Positions 28,026-63,399 of a DNA stretch of 64,000 nucleotides are shown one piece after another. Where the stretch lies: assembly GCF_014280235.1 (NCBI RefSeq), contig NZ_CP047940.1, positions 1,488,001-1,552,000 of the forward strand, read 5' to 3'. The stretch comes from Cyanobium sp. NS01 (GTDB lineage Bacteria; Cyanobacteriota; Cyanobacteriia; PCC-6307; Cyanobiaceae). The first letter of the stretch is position 1. Each line of letters begins with the position of its first letter. The notes beneath the pieces were generated by a model that was not told the DNA's origin, ran no database searches, and saw nothing but the letters and a program-made list of their open reading frames with translations. The position numbers and the translations under genes are program-made.

Positions 28026-30479
28026 ATGGCCCCTGCCGACCCCCTGGTGCTGCCGCTGGCAGCGGTGGATCTGAAGGCCCTGCCCCAGGTGGGCGGCAAG
28101 AACGCCTCCCTCGGAGAGATGATCCGGGAGCTCGGCAGCCAGGGGGTGCGGGTGCCCGGCGGCTTTGCCACCACGGCGGCCGCCTACCGCCACTTCCTCG
28201 CCGTCAACGGCCTCGAACCCCAGCTCAAAGACCTGCTGGATGGGCTCGACAGCAGTGATCTCGGCGCCCTGCAGGCCGCAGGCGCGGCCTGCAGGGCGCT
28301 GCTGCTCCGCTCCCCCCTGCCGCCAGATCTGCAGCAGGCGATTGTGGAGGCCTTCCGCGCCCTGGAGCCCGACGGCGCACCGCCGGCAGTGGCCGTGCGC
28401 TCCAGCGCCACGGCCGAAGACCTGCCCCAGGCCTCCTTCGCGGGCCAGCAGGACACCTTCCTCAACGTGCGCGGTGAACAGGCCCTGCTGGCCGCCTGCC
28501 GCCGCTGCTACGCCTCCCTGTTCACCGACCGGGCCATCTCCTATCGCCAGATCCACGGCTTCGAGCATCTGGAGGTGGCCCTCTCGATCGGCGTGCAGCG
28601 GATGGTGCGCTCCGACCTGGCCGCCTCAGGCGTGATGTTCAGCATCGACACCGAGACGGGCTTTCGTGACGCGGTGCTGCTCACCGCCGCCTACGGCCTG
28701 GGGGAAACGGTGGTGCAGGGCGCGGTGAACCCCGATGAATATCTGATCTTCAAGCCCACCCTGGAGCAGGGATTTGACGCGATCGTGCACCGGCGCCTGG
28801 GCAGCAAGGCGATCCGGATGGTCTACGCCGACCCCCCTCCGAGCGGCGGCGGCGCCCCCGAGCCCGGCCATGCCAGCACCCTCACCCAGCCGGTGCCGGA
28901 GCAGGAACGCTGCCGCTTCGCCATCAGCGATGCCGAAGCCCTGCAGCTGGCCCGCTGGGCCTGTGCGATCGAGCGCCACTACAGCGCCCAGCGGGGTGCC
29001 CCCACCCCCATGGACATCGAGTGGGCCAAGGACGGCGGCAGCGGTGCGCTGTACGTCCTGCAGGCCCGGCCGGAAACGGTGGAATCCCGCCGATCAGCCG
29101 CGGTGTTGAAAACCTGGCATCTGGCACCCCACAGCGCCGAGCCACTCGCCCAGGGGAGAGCGATCGGCGCCTCGGTGAGCAGCGGGCGGGCCCGGATCCT
29201 CAGCCATCCCGGCGAGATCGCCCGGTTCTCCCCGGGGGAGGTGCTCGTCACCGAGCGCACCGATCCCGACTGGGAGCCGATCCTCAAACGGGCCAGCGCC
29301 GTGATCACCGACCAGGGCGGCCGCACCTGCCACGCGGCGATCATTGCCCGCGAGATGGGGATCACGGCCATCGTCGGCACCGGCGACGGCAGCCGCCGCA
29401 TCCCCGATGGGGAAGAGGTGACCGCCAGCTGCTGCGAGGGCGATCAGGGCCGGGTGTACCGCGGCGCCCTGCCCTTCAGCGTGGAGGAGAGCCCCCTGGA
29501 CGACCTGCCCTCCACCCGCACCCGGATCCTGATGAACGTGGGCAACCCCGAGGAGGCCTTCAAGCTGGCGGCCATCCCCTGTGACGGGGTGGGGCTGGCC
29601 CGGTTGGAGTTCATCATCGCCAACCACATCCGGGTGCATCCGCTGGCCCTGCTGGAGCCGGAACGGGTGACGGACGCCGGTGAGCGCCAGGCGATCGCCC
29701 GCCTCACCGCCGGCTATGCCGAGGCGAGTGAGTACTACGTGGATCGGCTGGCCCAGGGCATGGCGCGCCTTGCCGCGGCGTTCTACCCGCGACCGGTGAT
29801 CCTGCGCTTCTCCGACTTCAAGAGCAACGAGTACGCCCGGCTCCTGGGCGGCGGCGGCTTCGAACCCCGCGAGGACAACCCCATGCTCGGCTGGCGCGGC
29901 GCCTCCCGCTACTACGCCCCGGCCTTTCGAGCGGCGTTCGGCCTCGAGTGCCGTGCCCTGCGGCGGGTGCGGGAGGCGATGGGGCTGGTGAACGTGATTC
30001 CGATGGTGCCCTTCTGCCGCACCCCCGAGGAGGGGGATCGGGTGTTGGCCGAGATGGCGCAGCACGGACTGGTGCGCGGCCAACACGGCCTGCAGGTGTA
30101 CGTGATGTGCGAACTGCCCAGCAACGTGATCAGCGCCGAGGCCTTCGCCGAGCGCTTCGATGGCTTCTCGATCGGCTCCAACGACCTCACCCAGCTCACC
30201 CTGGGGCTGGATCGCGATTCAGCCCTGGTGGCTGATCTGTTCGACGAACGCGACGCCGCGGTGAAGGCGATGATCCAGCTGGCGATCCGCACGGCCCACC
30301 GCTGCGGCCGCAAGATCGGCCTCTGCGGTCAGGCCCCCAGCGACCATCCCGACTTCGCCGCCTTCCTGGTGGAAGAGGGCATCGATTCGATCAGCCTCAA
30401 CCCCGATGCCGTGCTCAGCAGCCGCATCGCCGTGGCCGCGATCGAAGCCGAGCTGGCGGGCCGCAGTGGTGCCTGCTGA
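28026..30479 (+). CDS. ppsA: Phosphoenolpyruvate synthase
   Basis: The enzyme converts pyruvate and ATP to phosphoenolpyruvate, AMP and phosphate for gluconeogenic flow. The 817-residue product has the N-terminal ATP-grasp domain (VGGKNASLGEMIREL, AVRSSATAEDLPQASFAGQQ), the swivelling phosphohistidine domain with catalytic His in GGRTCHAAIIAREMG, and the C-terminal barrel. The barrel shows MCELPSNVISAEAF, GSNDLTQLTLGLDRD and the catalytic Cys in IGLCGQAPSDHPDF. Length and order are normal. It is divergent from the secreted hypothetical gene across a 178-base spacer. Confidence 0.97.
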   Translation: MAPADPLVLPLAAVDLKALPQVGGKNASLGEMIRELGSQGVRVPGGFATTAAAYRHFLAVNGLEPQLKDLLDGLDSSDLGALQAAGAACRALLLRSPLPPDLQQAIVEAFRALEPDGAPPAVAVRSSATAEDLPQASFAGQQDTFLNVRGEQALLAACRRCYASLFTDRAISYRQIHGFEHLEVALSIGVQRMVRSDLAASGVMFSIDTETGFRDAVLLTAAYGLGETVVQGAVNPDEYLIFKPTLEQGFDAIVHRRLGSKAIRMVYADPPPSGGGAPEPGHASTLTQPVPEQERCRFAISDAEALQLARWACAIERHYSAQRGAPTPMDIEWAKDGGSGALYVLQARPETVESRRSAAVLKTWHLAPHSAEPLAQGRAIGASVSSGRARILSHPGEIARFSPGEVLVTERTDPDWEPILKRASAVITDQGGRTCHAAIIAREMGITAIVGTGDGSRRIPDGEEVTASCCEGDQGRVYRGALPFSVEESPLDDLPSTRTRILMNVGNPEEAFKLAAIPCDGVGLARLEFIIANHIRVHPLALLEPERVTDAGERQAIARLTAGYAEASEYYVDRLAQGMARLAAAFYPRPVILRFSDFKSNEYARLLGGGGFEPREDNPMLGWRGASRYYAPAFRAAFGLECRALRRVREAMGLVNVIPMVPFCRTPEEGDRVLAEMAQHGLVRGQHGLQVYVMCELPSNVISAEAFAERFDGFSIGSNDLTQLTLGLDRDSALVADLFDERDAAVKAMIQLAIRTAHRCGRKIGLCGQAPSDHPDFAAFLVEEGIDSISLNPDAVLSSRIAVAAIEAELAGRSGAC

Positions 30480-52151: not shown

Positions 52152-52730
52152 TCAGCTGAGGCCCATCAGGGCGATCAGCCCGGGGGCCAACTGGCGAGCC
52201 GCCTTGCCGCGACTGCCCAGGCGACGGCACAGATGCTCCCCCATGCGGGCGTAGCTGCTGGCGGCCTCGCGCACGAAGAAGATCGGTGCATAGCCCGGCC
52301 CCTCGCCATCGGCCCTGGTCAGCACCTGGCCATGGCAGAGGCCCTCGGCCTCCAGCACGGTCTCGCCGGCGGGATTGGCCAGGGCCATGGCCGTGCGGAA
52401 GCGCGCTGCCCGGTAGGGCGTATCGCCGAGCTCCCGCAACAGGCGCGCCACCCGCTCGGGATCGCTGGGGGCGTAGCGGGCGGAATAGAGGCCCGGAGCT
52501 CCTGCGAGGGCATCCACCTCCAGGCCCGAGTCGTCGCCCAGAGCCCAGCTGCCGGTGCGCCGAGCCGCGGCCTCGGCTTTCAGGCGGGCGTTCTCGGCGT
52601 AGGTCTGCCCCGTCTCTTCCACCTCCAGGTCGCGGGGCTGGGGCGAGACCAGCACGTCGAGGGGCTCAAGCATGGCGGCAATCTCCGCCAGCTTGTGCGG
52701 ATTGCCGCTGGCGATCACCAGGGAGGGCAA
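52152..52730 (-). CDS. rdgB: dITP/XTP pyrophosphatase (Ham1/RdgB)
   Basis: RdgB hydrolyses inosine and xanthosine triphosphates to keep them out of DNA and RNA. The 192-residue product starts MPSLVIASGNPHKLAEIAAM, with the SGNxHK substrate motif, ENARLKAEAAARRTGSWAL, DDSGLEVDALAGAPGLYSAR and GPGYAPIF near the end. It lies antisense between csoS1D and csoS1A, 11 bases from the csoS1D stop. This placement is common in alpha-cyanobacteria. Confidence 0.96.
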   Translation of the reverse strand: MPSLVIASGNPHKLAEIAAMLEPLDVLVSPQPRDLEVEETGQTYAENARLKAEAAARRTGSWALGDDSGLEVDALAGAPGLYSARYAPSDPERVARLLRELGDTPYRAARFRTAMALANPAGETVLEAEGLCHGQVLTRADGEGPGYAPIFFVREAASSYARMGEHLCRRLGSRGKAARQLAPGLIALMGLS

Positions 52731-53196
52731 GAGGGGTTGATGCCGCGGAGGCCAGTGTTGCAGCAGGCCCGCAGCATCTGCCCCGCAGGCCCGGTCTTGG
52801 CAGGGTCGTGGAGCGTTGGCGTCAGGGGGTGAGGGAAAGGGGTGGGACCGGATGGCTTGAACATTCCACCCCTGGCAAACCCAGAAGGATTCCGGCCCCC
52901 GATCACGCTAGGCATAAGTGCTGAATGTTCAGGCTTCCGGCTGTGATGCCGGATCGGGCCGGCCGGGCCCCACACGCCGATGGGGCGCTGGAACAGGGCG
53001 GAGCGAAAGCCCCAAACAGCAGTCCATGACTGGGCCGGCAAGCAGAAGCTAACGAAATGTATGCGATCAATCAGAGTCGCTTATCAGTAATGACCCAAAC
53101 GGTGATCACCCAACCAGGGCCTTTTGCTTGACGGAGGGTTTGGCGGCGGACCATGGTTGCGAGCGAACATTCCACCCCCTCCATAAGGAGCAGGTA
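52731..53196. promoter_or_regulatory. Divergent leader between rdgB and csoS1A
   Basis: I see no credible gene in these 466 bases. They hold two exact copies of GAACATTCCACCCC (52859-52872 and 53165-53178), an inverted core GAATGTTC (52923-52930), a perfect 10-base palindrome GGTGATCACC (53101-53110) and a locally AT-richer patch around 53055-53095. AAGGAG (53184-53189) precedes the csoS1A ATG. A promoter for the whole cso operon is expected here, but I cannot place its -10 element. Confidence 0.65.
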
Positions 53197-53511
53197 ATGG
53201 CTAACGAAACCATGGGCATCGCCCTCGGCATGATTGAAACCCGCGGTCTGGTGCCCGCCATTGAAGCGGCTGATGCCATGACCAAGGCAGCCGAAGTGCG
53301 TCTCATCGCCCGCGAGTTCGTCGGCGGCGGCTACGTGACCGTGATGGTGCGCGGCGAGACCGGCGCTGTCAACGCTGCTGTGCGCGCCGGGGCTGACGCC
53401 TGTGAGCGCGTGGGCGACGGCCTGGTCGCCGCCCACATCATTGCTCGCCCCCACCGCGAAGTGGAGCCTGCCCTGAGCGGCAGCGCCGGTTTCGTGGGTT
53501 CCAAGGACTGA
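53197..53511 (+). CDS. csoS1A: CsoS1A, major hexameric carboxysome shell protein
   Basis: CsoS1A hexamers tile the facets of the alpha-carboxysome shell. The 104-residue product is one BMC domain: MANETMGIALGMIETRGLVP, KAAEVRLIAREFVGGGYVTV, GAVNAAVRAGADACERVGDG and LVAAHIIARPHREVEPAL. Its ATG follows AAGGAG by 7 bases. It leads cbbL by 62 bases, with a stem-loop in the gap. The BMC part is nearly identical to that of CsoS1E at 60678 onward. Confidence 0.98.
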   Translation: MANETMGIALGMIETRGLVPAIEAADAMTKAAEVRLIAREFVGGGYVTVMVRGETGAVNAAVRAGADACERVGDGLVAAHIIARPHREVEPALSGSAGFVGSKD

Positions 53512-53517
53512 GGCCCT

Positions 53518-53534
53518 GAGCGCCTGAGGCGTTC
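53518..53534 (+). promoter_or_regulatory. Stem-loop between csoS1A and cbbL
   Basis: GAGCGCC (53518-53524) pairs with GGCGTTC (53528-53534), seven pairs with one G-U, around TGA, followed by TTTC. This may be a weak terminator, or a processing or stability element that sets shell protein against RuBisCO levels. Confidence 0.6.
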
Positions 53535-53573
53535 TTTCGTCATTCCCTTAACCGACCCAACCGGAGAATCTCC

Positions 53574-54986
53574 ATGAGCAAGAAGTACGAGTCAGGCGTT
53601 AAGGAGTACCGCGACACGTATTGGACTCCTGATTACGTCCCCCTCGACACCGACCTGCTGGCCTGCTTCAAGTGCACCGGCCAGGAAGGTGTTCCCAAGG
53701 AAGAGGTGGCTGCCGCCGTGGCCGCTGAATCCTCCACCGGCACCTGGTCAGCGGTGTGGTCTGAGCTCCTCACCGACCTCGACTTCTACAAAGGCCGCTG
53801 CTACCGCATCGAAGACGTGCCCGGCGACAAGGAGGCCTTCTACGCCTTCATCGCCTACCCCCTCGACCTGTTCGAAGAAGGGTCCGTCACCAACGTGCTG
53901 ACCTCCCTGGTCGGCAACGTGTTCGGCTTCAAGGCCCTGCGCCACCTGCGCCTGGAGGACATCCGCTTCCCCCTGGCCTTCATCAAGACCTGCATGGGTC
54001 CGCCCAACGGCATCCAGGTCGAGCGCGACCGGATGAACAAGTACGGCCGTCCCCTGCTGGGTTGCACGATCAAGCCGAAGCTCGGCCTGAGCGGCAAGAA
54101 CTACGGCCGGGTGGTGTATGAATGCCTGCGTGGTGGTCTCGACTTCACCAAGGACGACGAGAACATCAACTCCCAGCCGTTCCAGCGCTGGCAGAACCGC
54201 TTCGAGTTCGTGGCCGAGGCCGTGCAACTCGCCCAGGAAGAAACCGGCGAGAAGAAGGGGCACTACCTCAACTGCACCGCCGCCACTCCTGAGCAGATGT
54301 ATGAGCGGGCCGAGTTTGCCAAGGAACTCGGGCAGCCGATCATCATGCACGACTACATCACCGGTGGCTTCACCGCCAACACCGGTCTGGCGCACTGGTG
54401 CCGCAAGAACGGCATGCTGCTCCACATCCACCGCGCCATGCACGCGGTGATCGACCGGCACCCAAAGCACGGCATCCACTTCCGGGTGCTGGCCAAGTGC
54501 CTGCGCCTCTCCGGTGGTGACCAGCTCCACACCGGCACCGTGGTGGGCAAGCTCGAGGGCGATCGCCAGACCACCCTCGGCTTCATCGACCAGCTGCGCG
54601 AGTCGTTCGTCCCCGAAGACCGCAGCCGCGGCAACTTCTTCGACCAAGACTGGGCCTCCATGCCCGGCGTGTTCGCCGTCGCCTCAGGCGGTATCCACGT
54701 GTGGCACATGCCGGCCCTGGTGGCCATCTTCGGCGACGACTCCGTGCTCCAGTTCGGTGGTGGCACCCACGGTCACCCCTGGGGTTCGGCCGCTGGCGCC
54801 GCGGCCAACCGGGTCGCCCTCGAAGCCTGCGTCAAAGCACGCAACGCCGGTCGGGAAATCGAGAAGGAAAGCCGCGACATCCTCATGGAGGCCGCCAAGC
54901 ACAGCCCCGAGCTGGCCATCGCTCTCGAAACCTGGAAGGAGATCAAGTTCGAGTTCGACACCGTCGACAAGCTCGACGTCAACTGA
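53574..54986 (+). CDS. cbbL: RuBisCO large subunit, form IA
   Basis: CbbL fixes CO2 onto ribulose bisphosphate inside the carboxysome. The 470-residue product starts [20 protein letters not shown]. It has the active-site [19 protein letters not shown], the carbamylated Lys in [16 protein letters not shown], loop 6 in [11 protein letters not shown] and the HVWHMPAL segment. The form IA type fits the cso operon. The start has GGAGA upstream. cbbS follows 94 bases later, with a stem-loop in the spacer. Confidence 0.99.
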
Positions 54987-55002
54987 TCACCCCATGACTG
55001 CA

Positions 55003-55030
55003 GGAGCCGGTGGGTTCACCCCCCTGCTCC
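55003..55030 (+). promoter_or_regulatory. Stem-loop between cbbL and cbbS
   Basis: GGAGC (55003-55007) pairs with GCTCC (55026-55030), and GGTG with CACC can stack inside it. It is weaker than the cbbS-csoS2 hairpins and there is no U-tract. Confidence 0.45.
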
Positions 55031-55080
55031 TCCGGTGATCCAGAACCGCATCCATTCATCCCATCCGCAACAGGATCCCC

Positions 55081-55422
55081 ATGCCCTTCAAGAGCACCGT
55101 GGGTGACTATCAAACAGTCGCCACCCTGGAGACCTTCGGCTTCCTCCCGCCGATGACCCAGGACGAGATCTACGACCAGATCGCCTACATCATTGCCCAG
55201 GGTTGGAGCCCCCTGATCGAGCACGTTCACCCCAGCCGCTCCATGGTCACCTACTGGTCGTACTGGAAGCTGCCCTTCTTCGGCGAGAAGGATCTGGGCG
55301 TGATCGTCAGCGAGCTCGAGGCCTGCCACCGCGCCTACCCCGACCACCACGTGCGTCTTGTGGGCTACGACGCCTACATCCAGAGCCAGGGTGCCTGCTT
55401 CGTGGTGTTCGAAGGCCGCTGA
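55081..55422 (+). CDS. cbbS: RuBisCO small subunit, form IA
   Basis: CbbS caps the L8 core to give the L8S8 holoenzyme. The 113-residue product begins MPFKSTVGDYQTVATLETFG and shows the family stretch FLPPMTQDEIYDQIAYIIAQ, then YWSYWKLPFFGEKDLGVIVS and LVGYDAYIQSQGACFVVFEG. Length is right for the alpha-carboxysomal type, which lacks the long loop of plant small subunits. It is followed by a 136-base spacer with three hairpins before csoS2. Confidence 0.98.
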   Translation: MPFKSTVGDYQTVATLETFGFLPPMTQDEIYDQIAYIIAQGWSPLIEHVHPSRSMVTYWSYWKLPFFGEKDLGVIVSELEACHRAYPDHHVRLVGYDAYIQSQGACFVVFEGR

Positions 55423-55450
55423 TTGCAGCTGCTTTTGACAGACCACTGAT

Positions 55451-55527
55451 GGTTGCAGCGTGACCTGCAACCGTCCCCTCTCTCCGCCGGCGGCGCCGGC
55501 GGCTCAAGCTTCAGGCCCCCAAGGCCT
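55451..55527 (+). promoter_or_regulatory. Three consecutive hairpins between cbbS and csoS2
   Basis: Hairpin 1: GGTTGCAG (55451-55458) with CTGCAACC (55465-55472), 8 perfect pairs, 6-base loop. Hairpin 2: CCGCCGG (55484-55490) with CCGGCGG (55496-55502), 7 pairs, 5-base loop. Hairpin 3: AGGCC (55513-55517) with GGCCT (55523-55527), 5 pairs, followed by CTTC. Together they occupy most of the spacer and could cut readthrough from the abundant RuBisCO message or protect its 3' end. Confidence 0.75.
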
Positions 55528-55558
55528 CTTCACAGCGATCTCAACACGTCGGGCGGAC

Positions 55559-57949
55559 ATGGCCAGCACATCCAGTCGGGAAGCAGCACTCGAGCGCCGC
55601 CGGGCCCTCACCACGGGCGGCAAGAAGGCTGCCGGGAGATTCATCTCCAGCCCGAGTCGGGTTCGCACCGTCGAGGACCTGCGGCAGGCCCGCTCGATCG
55701 AGACCGCAGCCCCGGTGACGCCAGAGCGTCAGAGGGCTGCCAGCCCCAGAGCTGCTGCCAGCCGTCCGAGTCTTTCCCTCAGTGCCCCTGAGGCCCCACG
55801 CAGCAACCCCGCCAGAAGGGTTCTCAACCACAGCCGCGAGCTGGCGCTGGCCCGCCGCCAGGCCCTCACCCAGAAGGGCAAGCGGGCCAGCACGTCCCGC
55901 GATCGCACCCGAACGGACCTGGGGCTGACGGTGAGCCGAGGCACCAGCGCCTCCAGCGGCAGCGCCCCCGAGGCCAGTCCCATCGCTGCGGCCAGCGCCA
56001 CCAGCAGCGCTCCCAGCAGCCGTTCCTCCCTCAATCTCAGCCTGTCGAGCTCACGCCTCGGCTCCGGCAGCGGCGGAGCCGCCGAGCGCCGCACCATGAA
56101 GCGCGCCCAGGCCCAGCACAACCCCAGCCGGGCCCTCGTGCTGGCCAGGCGGGAGGCCCTCTCCAAGCGCGGCAAGTCCGCCAACGCCCCCACCAGCAGC
56201 ACCGCTGCCACCCTGGCCCGCCAGGGCAATCCAGACATCAGCACCCGCGAACTGGCCCAGAAGGTGCGCGAACTCAAGGCCAAGGTGGGCAGTGCCGGCT
56301 CCTGCCGCAGCGGTGGCACCCGCCCCTGCGGCCCCAACCGCCATGGCGCCCAGCAGGCCGCCACGGCCGATGCCCACTGGAAAGTGGGCATGAGTGAAAC
56401 CACCTCCGGCCAGGTGGTGACCGGCACCCAGGCCAACCGCTCGCCCAAGACCACGGGCAACGAGGCCGCCACCTGCCGTGCCATCACCGGCACGGAGTAT
56501 CTGGGGGCCGAGGTGTTCCAGACGTTCTGTCAGAGCGACGCTCCCAGCCGTCAACCGGCCAAGGTGCGCCTCACGGACACCAGCCACGGCAATCGGGTCA
56601 CCGGCAACGAGGTGGGCCGCTCTGAAAAGGTCACCGGCGATGAACCTGGCACCTGCAAGCTGGTCACCGGCACCGAGTACGTGTCGGCCAACCAGATGGC
56701 CTCCTACTGCGGCACAAGCCAAGCCAGCCCCCGCAAGGTGGGCAAGAGCCAGACCCTCGGCGGTCAACCCGTTTCCGGGGTGATGGTGGGCCGCTCCGAG
56801 CGGGTCACCGGCGATGAACCCGGCTCCGGCCTGCAGCTCACGGGTGACCAGTACCTCGGTGCCGAGCCGCCGGCTCCGGGTCGGGCCCCCACCAAGGTGG
56901 ACTCGCTTCACACCCTGCGGGGCACCAACGTGACCGGCACCCACGTGGGCCGGGGCCAGCGGGTCACCGGCGATGAACCCGGCAGCTGCCGCCTGGTCAC
57001 CGGCGATGAATACGTGGGCAGCCAGCAATACGCCGCCTTCTGCGGCTCGGTTCCTGAACCTGAAGCCCCCAAGGTGGGGTTCAGCGTGACCAACCGCGCT
57101 CAGGTGGTGAGCGGCACCCGCACCGGCCGCAGCGACAAGGTCACGGGCGATGAACCCGGAACCTGCAAGTCGGTGACCGGCACCCCCTACGCCGGCCTGG
57201 AGCAGGCCTCCGACTACTGCGCAACGCCCGCCGTGCGCGAGATCCGTCAACGCACCCCGGTGCGCGGCTCCAGCCGCATGAGTGGGATCCAGCCCGGCAT
57301 CGGCGGCGTGATGACCGGCGCCGAGCGAGGCGCCTGTGAACCCATCACCGGCACCCCCTACGTGGGGGGTGACCAGCTGGCGGCAGCCTGTGGTGCCGCC
57401 AGTGGCCAGGATGCCGACTACCCCCAGCCCCTCGAAACAGCCCCCTGGCAACGGTTCAGCGTTCAGTCACCGGCCCGCGCCGCCCAGACGGCGCGCCAGC
57501 AGGCCGGCGGTGTCACCGGCAACGCCTACGAACAGGGAGGCCGCATCACCGGCCCTTTTGACCTGGCCGCCGGACAGGTCACCGGCACCGAACAGTTTCG
57601 CTTTGACCGCAAGGGCCCCCAGCTCTCCCGGGGGCCGATCCAGGTCTCGCCGGCCCCTGTGAGCGTGGACCAGGACGTGCGCCCCACCTCCAGGGTCACC
57701 GGTGAAGGCATCTCCGCAGGCCTCAAGATCACTGGCGACGACTGGGATCGGGGCGAGCATGTGACGGGAACGGAAGGCCGTTCCGCCCGCCGCCGCAACC
57801 CCACCCGCGTGGGCCCGATGAGCGCCATGCCCGGTGCCCAGCCCAAGCGCAACGACGCGGTGCCCGAACCGGTGAGCCTGGTGACCGGCTCCAGCGGCAA
57901 CACCCAGGCCGGATCCCTGATCACGGTTTCCGGTGGGGCCCGCGGCTGA
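55559..57949 (+). CDS. csoS2: CsoS2, intrinsically disordered carboxysome scaffold
   Basis: CsoS2 bridges RuBisCO and shell during assembly. ATG 55559 gives 796 residues starting MASTSSREAALERRRALTTG; the frame opens at 55460, but that start lies inside a hairpin. The N-domain has three RuBisCO-binding repeats of the pattern SRExAxxRRxALxxxGK (SREAALERRRALT, SRELALARRQALT, SRALVLARREALS), with perhaps a fourth degenerate. Then come six M-repeats with VTGxE/D motifs; the third lacks the Cys pair. A C-domain (QQAGGVTGNAYEQGG, GLKITGDDWDRGEHVTGTE) anchors to the shell. I see no obvious slippery heptamer for the -1 frameshift known in Halothiobacillus. Confidence 0.96.
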   Translation: MASTSSREAALERRRALTTGGKKAAGRFISSPSRVRTVEDLRQARSIETAAPVTPERQRAASPRAAASRPSLSLSAPEAPRSNPARRVLNHSRELALARRQALTQKGKRASTSRDRTRTDLGLTVSRGTSASSGSAPEASPIAAASATSSAPSSRSSLNLSLSSSRLGSGSGGAAERRTMKRAQAQHNPSRALVLARREALSKRGKSANAPTSSTAATLARQGNPDISTRELAQKVRELKAKVGSAGSCRSGGTRPCGPNRHGAQQAATADAHWKVGMSETTSGQVVTGTQANRSPKTTGNEAATCRAITGTEYLGAEVFQTFCQSDAPSRQPAKVRLTDTSHGNRVTGNEVGRSEKVTGDEPGTCKLVTGTEYVSANQMASYCGTSQASPRKVGKSQTLGGQPVSGVMVGRSERVTGDEPGSGLQLTGDQYLGAEPPAPGRAPTKVDSLHTLRGTNVTGTHVGRGQRVTGDEPGSCRLVTGDEYVGSQQYAAFCGSVPEPEAPKVGFSVTNRAQVVSGTRTGRSDKVTGDEPGTCKSVTGTPYAGLEQASDYCATPAVREIRQRTPVRGSSRMSGIQPGIGGVMTGAERGACEPITGTPYVGGDQLAAACGAASGQDADYPQPLETAPWQRFSVQSPARAAQTARQQAGGVTGNAYEQGGRITGPFDLAAGQVTGTEQFRFDRKGPQLSRGPIQVSPAPVSVDQDVRPTSRVTGEGISAGLKITGDDWDRGEHVTGTEGRSARRRNPTRVGPMSAMPGAQPKRNDAVPEPVSLVTGSSGNTQAGSLITVSGGARG

Positions 57950-57956
57950 TTCGCCC

Positions 57957-59681
57957 ATGCCCCGCCGATCCTTCCGCCCCACCCAAGCGTCGCTCGCCCC
58001 CACGGCCCAGCGCCGCCGCCCGAGATCCAGCCGCGACCCGGAGATCCTCCCTGCTGACAGCGACGCCCAGCCTGCGGTTCCCCTGCGGGGCACCCGGGCA
58101 AGGGCCGCCATGCAGGCCGCCCGGCCTTCAGCAACGCCGAGCGGCGCCAGCCGGGCGCAGCGGACCCGCCTCTCCGGTGCAAAGGCCACCAGCCTCGGCC
58201 GGTCCGGAACGCGCACAGCAGCCTTCAGCAGTTCCTTCCCCAGCCGGGCCGTGGCCAGCGCCGGGCGCGGCTCCAGCACCCATCCGCTCACCGATCCGGG
58301 CGCCAACCGGGCGCTGCAGGCCTACGACGAGGGAGTGAAGCAGGCCTTCGACCGCATCGTGCCGGTGCTCAAGCAGCTGTCAGGTCTGCAGCACGAGGAC
58401 GACTTCGTGGACCAGGCCCAGGCGATCGCCCAGGACCAGCTGGGCTATGCCCTGCCCCTGCCGATCCTGGAAACCGCCTGGGTGAGCCAGCTCGACATGC
58501 GCACCCTGTTTGCCTGGTGTGTGTTCGAGACCTACGAGCAGACCAGCGCCGCCTTTTTCAACCGGGATCCCCTTGGCGGCCAGGCCGGCAGTGAGGCCTC
58601 CCAGGCCTTCAATGCCTTCCTGCTGGAGTGTGGCTTCCACCTGCTCGACATCACCCCCTGTGCCGACGGACGCCTGGCCCACGCCATCGCCTATGGCCTG
58701 AGGCTGCCGTTCAGTTCTGTGCGACGCCGGCCCCACGCCGGTGCCCTGTTCGATGTGGAGAACACGGTGAACCGCTGGGTGAAGACCGAGCACCTCCGCT
58801 ATCGGGAGGGGATCCCCAATCCAGCCCATGCCGATACCCGCTACCTGAAGGTGGCGATGTATCACTTCAGTTCCAGGGATCCAAGCCATGAGGGCTGCGC
58901 CGCCCATGGCAGCGACGACAGCCTGGCGGCCTCCTGCGGGCTGCTGCGGCTGCAGGACTTCCAGCAGGCGGTGGAGAACAGCTTCTGCTGCGGGGCCTCG
59001 GTGGATCTGCTGCTGCTGGGCATCGACACCGACACCGATGCCATCCGGGTGCATGTACCGGGCATGGATGGCAGCACCAACCTGGAGCGCTGGCTGGATG
59101 CCCAGGACGTCTATGCCGCCACCGCCGACCTGAACCCAGAGCAGGCCCGCCAACAGGTGCAGCAGATGGTGCGGCAGGCCGCGGCCTCCGCCCCTGACCC
59201 CGGCATGGTGAGCCTCGTGGCCCGCCTTCTGGAGCACAACATCTCCCAGATCGACTACGTGCGCCAGTTCCATGGCGGCGCCTACGACGACGCCAGCCAT
59301 GCGGAGCGCTTCATCGGCGTGGGGATCGGCTTCAAGGAAATCCATCTGCGCAACCTCACCTACTTCGCCTACATGGACACCGTGGAAGAGGGCGCCGCAG
59401 ACCTGGATGTGGGCGTGAAGATCTTCCAGGGGCTGAATGTGTCCCGGGGCCTGCCGGTGCCCGTGGTGGTGCGCTTCGACTACCACGGCCAGGTGCCCGG
59501 TGCCCGGGAGCGGGCCGTGCGCCATTGCCAGCGGGTGCAGGCCGCCATCGAGAGCCGCTACGCCGAGCTCTTCCAGCAGGGCCTGCTGCACGCCCTGCTC
59601 ACCATCCGCGACCAGGATCGCCACATTCCCGCCGAAATCGTGGCCTCCACCATCGTGTTCGCCGCCACGGGAGGTCATTGA
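57957..59681 (+). CDS. csoSCA: CsoSCA, carboxysomal epsilon-class carbonic anhydrase
   Basis: CsoSCA converts bicarbonate to CO2 inside the shell. ATG 57957, 7 bases after csoS2, gives 574 residues. A basic disordered tail of about 110 residues, likely the shell or RuBisCO anchor, precedes the helical and catalytic domains. The active-site triad Cys235, Asp237, Arg239 (TPCADGRLAH) and the further zinc ligands His317 and Cys327 (CAAHGSDD and LAASCGLL) are visible. They match Halothiobacillus Cys173, Asp175, Arg177, His242 and Cys253 by pattern. The C-terminal defective half (GVGIGFKEIHLRNLTYFAY) is complete. It is followed at once by csoS4A. Confidence 0.95.
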   Translation: MPRRSFRPTQASLAPTAQRRRPRSSRDPEILPADSDAQPAVPLRGTRARAAMQAARPSATPSGASRAQRTRLSGAKATSLGRSGTRTAAFSSSFPSRAVASAGRGSSTHPLTDPGANRALQAYDEGVKQAFDRIVPVLKQLSGLQHEDDFVDQAQAIAQDQLGYALPLPILETAWVSQLDMRTLFAWCVFETYEQTSAAFFNRDPLGGQAGSEASQAFNAFLLECGFHLLDITPCADGRLAHAIAYGLRLPFSSVRRRPHAGALFDVENTVNRWVKTEHLRYREGIPNPAHADTRYLKVAMYHFSSRDPSHEGCAAHGSDDSLAASCGLLRLQDFQQAVENSFCCGASVDLLLLGIDTDTDAIRVHVPGMDGSTNLERWLDAQDVYAATADLNPEQARQQVQQMVRQAAASAPDPGMVSLVARLLEHNISQIDYVRQFHGGAYDDASHAERFIGVGIGFKEIHLRNLTYFAYMDTVEEGAADLDVGVKIFQGLNVSRGLPVPVVVRFDYHGQVPGARERAVRHCQRVQAAIESRYAELFQQGLLHALLTIRDQDRHIPAEIVASTIVFAATGGH

Positions 59682-59682
59682 G

Positions 59683-59979
59683 ATGCTGATCTGCAAGGTG
59701 CTCAAGCCCCTGGTCTCCACCAACCGCATTCCCGGTTTCGAGCACAAGCTGCTGCAGGTGGTGCTGGATGGCAGCACCAAGAAAGTGGCGGTGGACGCCG
59801 TGGGCTGCATCCCCGGTGACTGGGTGATCTGTGTGGGGAGTTCGGCGGCCCGAGAAGCCGCCGGCAGCAAGTCGTATCCCAGCGATCTCACGATCGTGGG
59901 GATCATCGACCACTGGGATCCCGACGCCCCCAAACCGGCGGCCCCACCGCCCAGCTCGGAACCGGGAGCAGGCACCTGA
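59683..59979 (+). CDS. csoS4A: CsoS4A, pentameric vertex shell protein
   Basis: CsoS4A pentamers close the twelve vertices of the shell. The 98-residue product begins MLICKVLKPLVSTNRIPGFE one base after the csoSCA stop. It carries the EutN/CcmL fold motifs (HKLLQVVLDGSTKKVAVDAV, GCIPGDWVICVGSSAAREAA) and ends with an unusually long Pro-rich tail (DPDAPKPAAPPPSSE). csoS4B starts inside its stop codon. Confidence 0.96.
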   Translation: MLICKVLKPLVSTNRIPGFEHKLLQVVLDGSTKKVAVDAVGCIPGDWVICVGSSAAREAAGSKSYPSDLTIVGIIDHWDPDAPKPAAPPPSSEPGAGT

Positions 59980-60230
59980 TGGAAATCATGCAGGTGACCG
60001 GCTCCCTCGTCTGCAGCCAGCGGGTCAGTGGCATGGGCCATTGGAACCTGAGGGTGCTGCGCAACGTCAAAGGCAAGCTCTCGGTGGCCGTCGATCCCGT
60101 CGGCGCCTCCGTCGGCAACTGGGTGTTCACCTCCAGCGGCTCCGCCGCCCGTTTCGCCTGTGGTATCCCCGAAGCCCAGATCGATCTGACCATCTCCGGA
60201 ATCATTGATTTCTGGGAACCCGATGGCTAG
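59979..60230 (+). CDS. csoS4B: CsoS4B, pentameric vertex shell protein
   Basis: This is the second vertex protein of the EutN/CcmL family. The 83-residue product begins MEIMQVTGSLVCSQRVSGMG, with the family motifs VDPVGASVGNWVFTSSGSAA and IDLTISGIIDFWEPDG. Its ATG overlaps the csoS4A stop (TGATG), so the two are translationally coupled. CsoS4B lacks the long tail of CsoS4A. csoS1E follows after an 79-base gap without a visible hairpin. Confidence 0.96.
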   Translation: MEIMQVTGSLVCSQRVSGMGHWNLRVLRNVKGKLSVAVDPVGASVGNWVFTSSGSAARFACGIPEAQIDLTISGIIDFWEPDG

Positions 60231-60309
60231 CTGACGCCCCGACGGCTGCTGCTTCCCGCGGCGGCCGCTGTGCCGATCTCACCCTGTTCCCGTCCCCCCG
60301 CGCCCCGCC

Positions 60310-60984
60310 ATGGCCACACCGACCACCCGACCGACCGGCAAATCCGCCGCCTCAGAGGGCGCCGGTGACGCCAGCAGCGCCAGCGCCAGGCCAGCGCCGG
60401 CAGCGACGCCCACCAGCCAGGCGGCGACGCCACCCCCCACCTCCCAGAAGCCCGCCTCTCTGAAGTCCAGCTCCACCAAGCCCAGCCCGGCCGCCCCGGC
60501 TGCCGCGGCCACCACCACGGCCCGTTCCACAGCCAGCACCACCAGCCGGTCCAGGGCTCTGCCCCCCGCCTCCAGCACCAGCCAGCGCTCCAGCAGCAGC
60601 AGCAGCAGCCGCCGCTCCGGGGGCTCCAGTGGCACCCGGCCCCCCGCCTCTTCGTCCTCCTCCGCAACCTCCCCCATGGCTCCCACCGTTAACGGCATCG
60701 CCCTCGGCATGATCGAAACCCGCGGTCTGGTGCCTGCGATCGAGGCGGCTGACGCCATGACCAAGGCCGCTGAGGTCACCATGGTGGCCCGCGAATTCGT
60801 GGGCGGTGGCTACGTCACCGTGATGGTGCGGGGGGAAACCGGCGCCGTGAACGCCGCGGTGCGGGCCGGTGCCGACGCCTGCGAGCGGGTGGGTGACGGC
60901 CTCGTGGCTGCCCACATCATTGCCCGCCCCCACACCGAAGTGGAGCCCGCTCTGCAGAGCACTGAGACCGTTCGCCGCCTGTGA
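60310..60984 (+). CDS. csoS1E: CsoS1E, BMC shell protein with long disordered N-terminus
   Basis: The 224-residue product has about 120 residues of Ser/Pro/Ala/Thr-rich low-complexity sequence, with a CAG codon run at 60591-60609, and then a full BMC domain almost the same as CsoS1A (TVNGIALGMIETRGLVPAIE to PHTEVEPAL). CsoS1E is a low-copy shell component found in only some alpha-cyanobacteria. The BMC part would co-assemble with CsoS1A hexamers, and the tail, whose role is unknown, would hang from the shell. It overlaps the next start by TGATG. Confidence 0.94.
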   Translation: MATPTTRPTGKSAASEGAGDASSASARPAPAATPTSQAATPPPTSQKPASLKSSSTKPSPAAPAAAATTTARSTASTTSRSRALPPASSTSQRSSSSSSSRRSGGSSGTRPPASSSSSATSPMAPTVNGIALGMIETRGLVPAIEAADAMTKAAEVTMVAREFVGGGYVTVMVRGETGAVNAAVRAGADACERVGDGLVAAHIIARPHTEVEPALQSTETVRRL

Positions 60985-61457
60985 TGCCGATGGACGCCGC
61001 CCATCCGCGCGTCCTGGGCTATCTGGGTCGCGCCCTGAGCCTCGAGCTCACCGCCGTGCAGCAATACATGACCCAGGCCTCCCTGCTGGAGATCTGGGGC
61101 AATGCCGAGGCCGCCAAACGCTTCCGCGAGGAAACCGTGGAAGAACTCCGCCATGCCGAAAAGCTGGTGCAGCGGATGCTCAGCCTCGGCGTGGCTCCGG
61201 CCGCTTCCCAGTTGCAGCCGGTGGCCCACGCCCCCGATCTGCCTGGGTTGCTGCGCCACAACAGCGCCATGGAGGCCGAACTCATCAATCATTACGCCGA
61301 AGCCGTGCGCTTCTGTGTTCAGATCGGAGACGGAGAGAATGAAGCCTGCTTCCGTGAACTGTGGCGCGACGAGCAATCCCATGGGGAGGAGCTGGCCATC
61401 TGGCTGCGTCAGCTGGGCGGGCAGCCAGGCCCGGGCCTCGAGCGCGCGACCTTCTGA
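60984..61457 (+). CDS. Bacterioferritin-like (ferritin-fold) protein of the cso operon
   Basis: The start is ATG 60984, overlapping the csoS1E stop; the 157-residue product begins MPMDAAHPRVLGYLGRALSL. The four-helix ferritin pattern is visible with ligand-like residues in ELTAVQQYMTQASLLE, EETVEELRHAEKLVQRML and ELINHYAEAVRF, and in DEQSHGEELAIWLRQLG. A ferritin-like gene follows cso clusters in many alpha-cyanobacteria and proteobacteria. Whether it stores iron, oxidises iron or does something shell-related is not known from sequence. It is cotranscribed with csoS1E and leads ndhF4. Confidence 0.9.
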   Translation: MPMDAAHPRVLGYLGRALSLELTAVQQYMTQASLLEIWGNAEAAKRFREETVEELRHAEKLVQRMLSLGVAPAASQLQPVAHAPDLPGLLRHNSAMEAELINHYAEAVRFCVQIGDGENEACFRELWRDEQSHGEELAIWLRQLGGQPGPGLERATF

Positions 61458-61524
61458 GCCAGCAGCGGCTTGGCAGCCGCCGCCCTGAGCTCAGCTGGCT
61501 CCAGGCCGCCTGAAGGGCCAGCCA

Positions 61525-63399
61525 GTGACAGATCCCGTGCCCCTCCTGCCCCTGCCCCTCCAGCTGGCCTGGCTGATCCCGCTGTACGGGTTCAGCGGCA
61601 TGCTGCTCTCGCTGCCCTGGGCCTGCGGCTGGCTACCGCGCCAGGGTCCGCGGCCGGCGGCCTACCTCAACCTGCTGGTCACCCTGCTGGCCGTGGTCCA
61701 CGGCGCTCTGGCGGCCTGGCAAGTGAGCCTCCACGGCCCGGCCCACCTGGTCATCCCCTGGTTTTCCGCCGCCGACCTCAGCCTCAGCCTGGGCTTCGAC
61801 CTCTCGCCCACCAACCTGGCCGCCCTGGCGCTGGTGACCCTGCTGAGCCTGCTGGCCCAGGTGTTTGCCCTTGGCTACCTCGACAAGGAGTGGTCGCTGG
61901 CGCGCTTCTACGCCCTGGTGGGCTTCTTCGAAGGCGCCCTCTGTGGGGTGGTGCTGAGCAGCAACCTGTTCATGAGCTATTTCCTGCTGGAGATGCTCAC
62001 CCTCTCCACCTACCTGCTGGTGGGGTTCTGGTATGCCCAGCCGCTGGTGGTCACGGCGGCCCGCGATGCCTTCCTCACCAAGCGGGTGGGTGATGTGCTG
62101 CTGCTGATGGGCGTGGTGGCCCTCTCGGCCTGGGCCGGCTCGTTGGAGTTCACCGATCTCTACAGCTGGGCCGCAGCCGCCCACGCCGACGGCAGCCTCA
62201 CCCCCCTGGCCGGCACCCTGCTGGGCCTGGGGCTGATCGCCGGACCGATGGGCAAGTGTGCCCAGTTCCCGATGCACCTGTGGCTCGATGAGGCCATGGA
62301 GGGCCCCAACCCGGCCTCGATCCTGCGCAACTCAGCCGTGGTCACCGCCGGAGCCCTGGTGCTGCTCAAGCTGATGCCGCTGCTGCTGCTCTCTCCGGTG
62401 GCCACGGACGTGCTGCTGGCGGTGGGCACGATCAGCGCCCTGGGCGGAGCGCTCGTGGCCCTGGCCCAGGTGGACCTGAAGCGGGCCTGCTCCTACGGCA
62501 CCACCTCCTATGTGGGGCTGGTGTTCATTGCCATCGCCCTGCAGCAACCCGGTATCGCCGTGCTGCTGCTGTTCTCCCACGCCCTGGCCAAGGCGCTGCT
62601 GTTCATGGGTGTGGGCAGCGTGATCGCCGCCACCAACTGCCAGGACCTCACCGAGCTGGGCGGCATCGGCAGCCGCATGCCCGCCACCGCCACGGCCTTT
62701 GTGGTGGGGAGCGCCGGCCTGGTGGGGCTGCTGCCCCTGGGCTGCTTCTGGTGCTTCGGCCTGGGCGTGGAGGCTCTGCTGGCCGGTGCCCCCGCCTTCG
62801 CCGCGGTGCTGCTGATCACCAATGCCCTCACGGCCGTGAACCTCTGCCGGGTGTTCCGCAGTGTGTTTCTGGGTGCCGTGAGGCCCAAGACCCGCCGCAC
62901 GCCGGAGGTGATCTGGCTGATGGCCCTGCCGATGGTGAGCCTCAGCGTGCTGGTGCTGCTCACCCCCCTGCTGCTGGCCCGGCTGGATCCGGTGCCTGGC
63001 CTGGCCTCCTTCGCCTGGCCCATCGGCCTGGCGGTGGCAGGCAGCGGGCTGCTGGGGGTGGGGATCGGCGTCTGGCTGCCCCTCGATGCAGTGCGCAGCC
63101 GCTCCAGCCCCCAGGCCCTGCGCGGTCTGCAGGACCTGCTGGCCTTCGACTTCTACAGCGAGGCGGCCTACCGCAGCACGCTGGTGGCCCTGGTGGCGGC
63201 CCTGGCCCGCCTCAGCGACGGGCTGGATCGACGCCTGGTGAACGGCGTGGTGAACGGCTTCGGTCGGCTCTCGCTGCAGAGTGCCGAGGGTCTGAAGCTG
63301 GGGGTGAGCGGGCAGCTGCAGTCGTACCTGCTCACCGCCGTGGTGGCGATCGTGACGCTGACCGCCTGCCTGGCCTGGCTCAGCCGAGGCGGCCCATGA
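61525..63399 (+). CDS. ndhF4: NDH-1 subunit NdhF4 (CO2-uptake NDH-1)
   Basis: NdhF4 is a proton-pumping-type membrane subunit of the NDH-1 complex specialised for CO2 hydration. The 624-residue product has about sixteen membrane helices. The antiporter-like core shows GPMGKCAQFPMHLWLDEAM, EGPNPASILRNSAVVTAGAL and the Lys-bearing AQVDLKRACSYGTTSYVGLV. Placement after the cso operon and before ndhD4 marks it as the inorganic-carbon form rather than the respiratory NdhF1; alpha-cyanobacteria usually keep this one CO2-uptake type. It shares a 4-base overlap (ATGA) with ndhD4. Confidence 0.93.
   Translation: MTDPVPLLPLPLQLAWLIPLYGFSGMLLSLPWACGWLPRQGPRPAAYLNLLVTLLAVVHGALAAWQVSLHGPAHLVIPWFSAADLSLSLGFDLSPTNLAALALVTLLSLLAQVFALGYLDKEWSLARFYALVGFFEGALCGVVLSSNLFMSYFLLEMLTLSTYLLVGFWYAQPLVVTAARDAFLTKRVGDVLLLMGVVALSAWAGSLEFTDLYSWAAAAHADGSLTPLAGTLLGLGLIAGPMGKCAQFPMHLWLDEAMEGPNPASILRNSAVVTAGALVLLKLMPLLLLSPVATDVLLAVGTISALGGALVALAQVDLKRACSYGTTSYVGLVFIAIALQQPGIAVLLLFSHALAKALLFMGVGSVIAATNCQDLTELGGIGSRMPATATAFVVGSAGLVGLLPLGCFWCFGLGVEALLAGAPAFAAVLLITNALTAVNLCRVFRSVFLGAVRPKTRRTPEVIWLMALPMVSLSVLVLLTPLLLARLDPVPGLASFAWPIGLAVAGSGLLGVGIGVWLPLDAVRSRSSPQALRGLQDLLAFDFYSEAAYRSTLVALVAALARLSDGLDRRLVNGVVNGFGRLSLQSAEGLKLGVSGQLQSYLLTAVVAIVTLTACLAWLSRGGP

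Follow-up and report, generated by a model that had tools for sequence, protein, structure and literature searches.

A conserved intercistronic hairpin between cbbS and csoS2 in the carboxysome operon of alpha-cyanobacteria

The spacer between cbbS and csoS2 in the carboxysome operon of Cyanobium sp. NS01 contains a hairpin that recurs at a conserved position in its relatives, where the pairing is kept by compensatory changes and the tail behind the stem is unlike that of the terminators of the same family. The comparison indicates that this stem, referred to here as hairpin 1, is a conserved RNA structure under selection, and it belongs to a known kind of element, the intercistronic hairpins. 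It probably contributes to the amounts in which the individual messages are retained in the cell. We estimate the probability that it holds the cbbLS message in excess by means of a protected 3' end at roughly 0.5; a function of the hairpin is plausible and readily testable.

The window, i.e., the whole stretch of 64,000 nucleotides that was analysed, derives from a genome consisting of one contig of 2,748,087 bases and contains an alpha-cyanobacterial carboxysome operon on the + strand, in which the gene names other than CsoS2 and CbbS come from sequence reading. A csoS1-like shell gene (53196-53511, +), identified in this way, is followed by cbbL (53574-54986, +; RubisCO large subunit, 470 aa), an open reading frame assigned from its sequence and its place in the operons of relatives. 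The gene cbbS (55081-55422, +; RubisCO small subunit, 113 aa, stop codon at 55420-55422) was assigned from its open reading frame and the matches in relatives, and csoS2 (55559-57949, +), encoding the carboxysome scaffold protein, from its match to PF12288 (CsoS2_M; E=1.1e-199). The CbbS query has a match in 57 of 60 genomes, and 34 non-self matches in the alpha-cyanobacterial family lie at ~81-98% identity. The order cbbL-cbbS-csoS2 is annotated in both outgroup records (L112 and L113), and the small-subunit annotation for cbbS is present there too. Further carboxysome genes lie downstream of csoS2 in the window. An open reading frame of 224 aa at 60310-60984 has a CsoS1-like shell domain after a long low-complexity N-terminal part and presumably resembles the extended shell proteins of the alpha-cyanobacterial group. 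The cbbS-csoS2 spacer (55423-55558) measures 136 nt.

The first-pass annotation of this DNA had described three stems of 8, 7 and 5 pairs in this spacer and regarded them as a tandem unit. All three inverted repeats are indeed present, but hairpin 2 has 8 pairs instead of 7, and the unit as such did not hold up, with hairpin 3 at chance level and hairpin 2 unmatched in relatives. Hairpin 1 (55448-55475, +) is formed by GATGGTTGCAG and CTGCAACCGTC around the loop CGTGAC; its core, GGTTGCAG/CTGCAACC with the 6-nt loop, spans 55451-55472, and its 11 pairs, including one G-U, are reached by counting the flanking G-C, A-U and U-G. Hairpin 2 (55484-55502, +) pairs CCGCCGGC with GCCGGCGG around GGC (8 pairs, 3-nt loop), and hairpin 3 (55513-55527, +) pairs AGGCC with GGCCT around CCCAA (5 pairs). 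In 2000 dinucleotide shuffles of the local stretch, p was 0.0045 for hairpin 1, 0.008 for hairpin 2 and 0.18, i.e., chance level, for hairpin 3, which was dropped as a functional element.

A chance GC palindrome without function would be in keeping with much of what the window itself offers. The fold of the whole spacer is ordinary (-51.1 kcal/mol, z only -1.07; 32 of 200 shuffles were equally good), and about 1% of half-overlapping 100-nt windows hold a stem equal to hairpin 1: a score of at least 26.5, the level of this hairpin, was reached in 12 out of 1278 with hairpin 1 itself counted, and a score of at least 24, the level of hairpin 2, in 35 out of 1278 with the hairpins themselves counted. 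Because equal stems are not rare in this GC-rich stretch, the window alone cannot decide; the relatives do, for hairpin 1 only, and there conservation with covariation refutes chance, to which we assign a negligible probability. For hairpin 3 chance is the right reading and for hairpin 2 a possible one. In two relatives the folding energy of the whole spacer is significant (z=-3.2 and -3.4). The strongest perfect hairpin in the whole 64 kb lies at 28262-28301 and has 18 pairs and a loop of 4.

Hairpin 2 is lineage-specific: among the 13 genomes of the genus, the own one included, the other 12 show no match to this part of the spacer apart from a single stray one of 21 nt located elsewhere. In the own genome, its arm palindrome has 3 exact occurrences and 10 more with one mismatch, and a control pattern has 7. 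Across the relatives, 16 of the 71 spacers tested hold a second significant hairpin further downstream, which speaks against a general tandem unit; this number is nevertheless above the 3-4 expected, which indicates that tandem stems recur in some lineages. A REP-like dispersed repeat was considered for hairpin 1 and rejected, since the exact core palindrome is found at 1 place in the genome, with 6 more at 2 mismatches. Rfam gave 0 matches in the window at gathering score, and three weak matches around the operon (E 2.8-4.9) were far below the gathering scores.

For the comparison, 110 cbbS loci were used, i.e., L001-L030 from the 60 genomes and the best 80 of the 431 named-genome matches to the cbbS query; they include repeats between the two sets, and distant matches were left unused. 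The ATG pattern of csoS2 was found in 106 of these loci and the other four (L033, L034, L049, and L093) were left out of the counts, which leaves 93 distinct cbbS-csoS2 spacers of 70-273 nt. Within the 100 nt that follow cbbS, the best hairpin reached p<=0.05 in 85 out of 92 distinct spacers with 100 dinucleotide shuffles, one locus cut short at cbbS being left out of this run, and in 85 out of 93 in a first run with 200 dinucleotide shuffles. The same shuffle test was positive for only 1 of 89 sequences covering the final 100 nt of cbbS, 0 of 91 from its middle, 7 of 91 from the first 100 nt of csoS2, and 3 of 49 csoS1-cbbL spacers. Four of the 7 failing spacers (L019, L020, L065, and L073) have, close to the stop, a stem interrupted by one mismatch, and in L046, L050, L068, and L075 the first hairpin is surpassed by a later one. 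The stem starts 6-66 nt behind the cbbS stop in the 85 spacers (median 19); the stems are GC-rich and the loops of the relatives' hairpins are mostly 3-8 nt. In the nearest relatives by CbbS (L002 and L003, 98%), the arms GCGGTTCCTG/CAGGAACCGC occupy spacer positions 28-53 and enclose the same 6-nt loop as the stem of the window, which lies at 26-53.

Outside these counts, a perfect stem is visible by eye in L033. In L093, the 3' flank of cbbS lacks a stem of this kind and instead carries repeats of short CTGATTCAG-like units, possibly reflecting loss or replacement of the hairpin element. Cyanobacterial cbbS genes at 95-97% identity occur on contigs titled Betaproteobacteria bacterium and Bifidobacterium breve (L034 and L097), which are probably misbinned or mislabelled MAG contigs. 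The two proteobacterial outgroups, both from plasmids, gave one strong hairpin (z=-3.9) and none (z=-0.16), respectively. The strong one, in the cbbS-csoS2 spacer of Candidatus Thiodictyon syntrophicum (L112, ~2915-2990), has ~24 pairs and is perhaps a mobile or repeat element.

Among the 85 hairpin-bearing spacers there are 53 different inner arms, i.e., the sequence drifts while the pairing stays. Many Cyanobium-like spacers have arms of the type GGTCCCGG/CCGGGACC; TAGCCTCGA/TCGAGGCTA is typical of low-GC Prochlorococcus-like spacers and GAGCCCTGA/TCAGGGCTC of the WH7803 group. Eight groups comprising 62 of the 93 distinct spacers were aligned with MAFFT on sequence only, the stem of one member serving as the structure in each group. 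In these groups, which like their reference stems were chosen by hand, a choice that favours a clean answer, 629 of 650 cells hold standard pairs; 35 of the 85 base pairs vary and 21 of the 85 have changed on both sides with pairing kept, as opposed to 2-6 covarying pairs, with 30-55% of cells pairing, when the partner is slid by 1-3 columns. RNAalifold, run unguided on 11 low-GC spacers, placed the hairpin with 9 pairs, 4 of which show change on both sides. Automatic clusters, in which the longest stem served as reference, gave a weaker result (35 both-changed cells paired versus 26 broken, and 72 one-sided breaks; for the slid versions 8-20, 28-41, and 74-120, respectively), which we attribute to reference stems that are too long or to a different hairpin within one cluster (L050). 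The compensatory changes that the first-pass annotation had suggested looking for are thus found in hairpin 1.

The same data bear on the idea that the palindrome acts at the level of DNA, as a protein binding site or cruciform, and not as an RNA element. Its symmetric sequence is compatible with DNA binding when judged from one sequence, but so many different inner arms do not form a fixed site and the pyrimidine tract, present on the 3' side only, points to the mRNA strand, which makes this reading very unlikely. In the window, hairpin 1 is followed by the 12 nt CCCTCTCTCCGC; they include a tract (55476-55485, +) in which 10 out of 10 positions are C or T, three of them T, and which overlaps the first bases of hairpin 2. 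The pyrimidine fraction behind the stem is 1.0 in the window and on average 0.78 in the 85 relatives, compared with 0.57 over whole spacers. The upstream side of the stem has no matching pyrimidine bias, and the element is therefore one-stranded, in the sense of the mRNA.

As a yardstick for this tail we used the 3' ends of psbA in the same family (33 distinct, 28 of which have a stem scoring >=18). The intrinsic terminators of psbA and the cbbS hairpin are alike in their GC-rich stem of ~8-12 pairs, their short loop, and the pyrimidines behind it. However, in psbA the U-tract stands at the foot of the stem, whereas behind cbbS it lies 4-5 nt further on and is mixed with C. A U at +1 is present in 19/85 cbbS hairpins versus 26/28 psbA hairpins (Fisher p=2e-11), and the U fractions from +1 to +4 are 0.22, 0.28, 0.32, and 0.35 versus 0.93, 0.86, 0.89, and 0.78. 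A stretch of 8 nt close to the stem with 5 or more U is found in 27/85 versus 19/28. Behind the cbbS hairpin, U occurs at +5 to +8 in 42-48 of the 85 (0.49-0.56), and G is rare, with 10, 4, 1, 3, 2, and 4 of 85 at +3 to +8 and complete absence from +3 to +9 in 58/85. The tail of the cbbS-csoS2 hairpin thus differs from a normal terminator tail.

The obvious rival to a protected 3' end is a weak intrinsic terminator at the same place, where the displaced U/C tract would make the polymerase pause, with release of a part of it, so that less csoS2 than cbbLS message is made and stability plays no part. The strong GC-rich stem with its short loop, the enrichment of U at +5 to +8, the U-rich minority of relatives, which would pass as having a U-tract, and the U run directly behind the stem in some low-GC members (e.g., L018 and L030) all fit such a terminator. 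Against it, of the features of intrinsic terminators the stable GC-rich, short-loop hairpin is present but the U-rich tract at the stem foot is generally not, as the comparison with psbA makes clear; the tail in the window is CCCTCTCTCC, and a consensus scan for terminators over 52500-62000 gave 0 sites versus 3.8 in shuffles, so that the absence of a strong U-tract noted in the first-pass annotation stands. We regard weak termination as the main rival and as a possible, if tentative, explanation; both mechanisms may act. Strong termination is a less likely route to an excess of cbbLS message than a protected 3' end would be.

In the protected-end reading, the operon would be transcribed through hairpin 1 into csoS2, and the hairpin, once in RNA, would become the 3' border of the cbbLS message. 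Immediately downstream of the stem, in the single-stranded, G-poor stretch rich in C and U, the RNA would be cut, presumably by an RNase, or in some cases released. The stem would then halt 3' exonucleases, and the cbbLS piece would outlast the csoS2 piece, giving RubisCO message in excess over scaffold message, a ratio that may be the purpose of the arrangement. Two lines of evidence argue for co-transcription. The end of the stem lies 27-197 nt upstream of the csoS2 ATG and at <=40 nt in 26/85, where csoS2 is probably transcribed through the stem; such a distance leaves little room for a separate csoS2 promoter, and one inside cbbS or the stem is possible. In addition, the cso cluster is listed as an operon in a published map for Prochlorococcus MED4 (PMC3898218).

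Stabilising intercistronic hairpins are known from the puf operon of Rhodobacter (pufBA-pufLMX) and, in the form of REP hairpins, from malE-malF of E. coli. The arrangement cbbS-hairpin-csoS2 resembles both in that a strong stem without a terminator tail stands within one operon, downstream of a gene whose product is needed in quantity and upstream of one in lesser demand. It differs from them in being known from sequence alone, in its clade-wide conserved position with covarying pairs, and in the pyrimidine-rich, G-poor tract behind it. Unlike REP elements, the core of hairpin 1 is not dispersed and has one exact place in the genome. A search of open-licence papers found no description of a cbbS-csoS2 hairpin. 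The transcript analysis of the H. neapolitanus cso operon by Cai et al. 2008 (Arch Microbiol 189:141), cited in PMC9164163, reportedly found unequal transcript levels of the cso genes; it concerns the same type of operon and the same question, albeit in a proteobacterium, and may anticipate part of our finding.

The neighbouring spacers qualify this picture. A significant hairpin by the shuffle test, with a similar non-terminator tail, occurs in 43 of 89 distinct cbbL-cbbS spacers, and as the two subunits are equimolar this is a point against stoichiometry as the purpose; in the window, the hairpin of the cbbL-cbbS spacer (54987-55080) is below significance (p=0.72). The genes apcB and apcC likewise place an abundant subunit beside a linker. 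Their spacers were taken from 17 genomes of the same family, and no strong hairpin was found in the 15 short ones parsed (30-50 nt, scores of 8-14.5); one further spacer has 5 nt, and L226 was wrongly parsed and left out. An intercistronic hairpin is, therefore, not a general habit of these cells. Other post-transcriptional layers exist, as in MED4 the sRNA Yfr10 is reported to bind the csoS1 and csoS2 messages and not those of other genes of the operon (PMC6778093).

For building alpha-carboxysomes in plants, it matters in practice how a single operon can yield RubisCO in such large excess over the scaffold. The amount of CsoS2 and the protein stoichiometry are named as limits of alpha-carboxysome constructs in PMC10130085, and PMC6120970 and PMC10130085 describe such constructs in which native spacers were swapped for other elements. 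With its conservation in relatives from Cyanobium through to Prochlorococcus, the element at the cbbS-csoS2 border offers itself as a target for mutation. A further-reaching and rather unlikely interpretation is that an element whose shape is kept throughout the clade, with its displaced pyrimidine tract, represents a regulated RubisCO:scaffold set-point in alpha-cyanobacteria, responding to light, inorganic carbon, an RNase or an RNA-binding factor; if true, one hairpin would tune the filling of carboxysomes in the most abundant phototrophs of the ocean.

The start of csoS2 at the ATG at 55559, proposed in the first-pass annotation, is supported by the ATG pattern mentioned above, by a conserved leader, and by an in-frame stop upstream of the ATG in 76/93 distinct spacers, the window being among the 17 without one. 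The GTG at 55460 lies within hairpin 1 and is implausible as a start, and the open reading frame listed from there represents an unconserved extension. Hairpin 1 might also act in translation, as an insulator that keeps ribosomes terminating on cbbS from moving further along or re-initiating and thus restricts the start of csoS2 to its own GGGCGGAC-AUG leader. The proximity of the stem to the stop codon (median 19 nt), the strong conservation of the leader, and a further hairpin over the cbbS stop in 22/93 distinct loci are in line with this. We nevertheless consider it improbable, as in longer spacers as much as 197 nt separate the stem from the start of csoS2, too great a distance to affect initiation, and the conserved pyrimidine tract would go unexplained. 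The hairpin covering the stop codon (region 55400-55445) is above chance in the loci just counted and exists in compensatory versions, with examples in L071, L062, and L103, e.g., GGTCGCTG-ATC-CAGCGACC; in the window only 4 pairs are present at this place. The csoS2 leader itself, GGGCGGAC (55551-55558, +), stands directly before the ATG, in a position like that of a Shine-Dalgarno sequence but with a non-standard sequence. It precedes the ATG in 54/93 distinct spacers, and GGGCGGA is found at -8 to -2 in 68/93. The own genome holds GGGCGGACATGG at 2 places. The leader is conserved across the range between GC-rich species such as Cyanobium and AT-rich ones such as Prochlorococcus and may be a special initiation signal.
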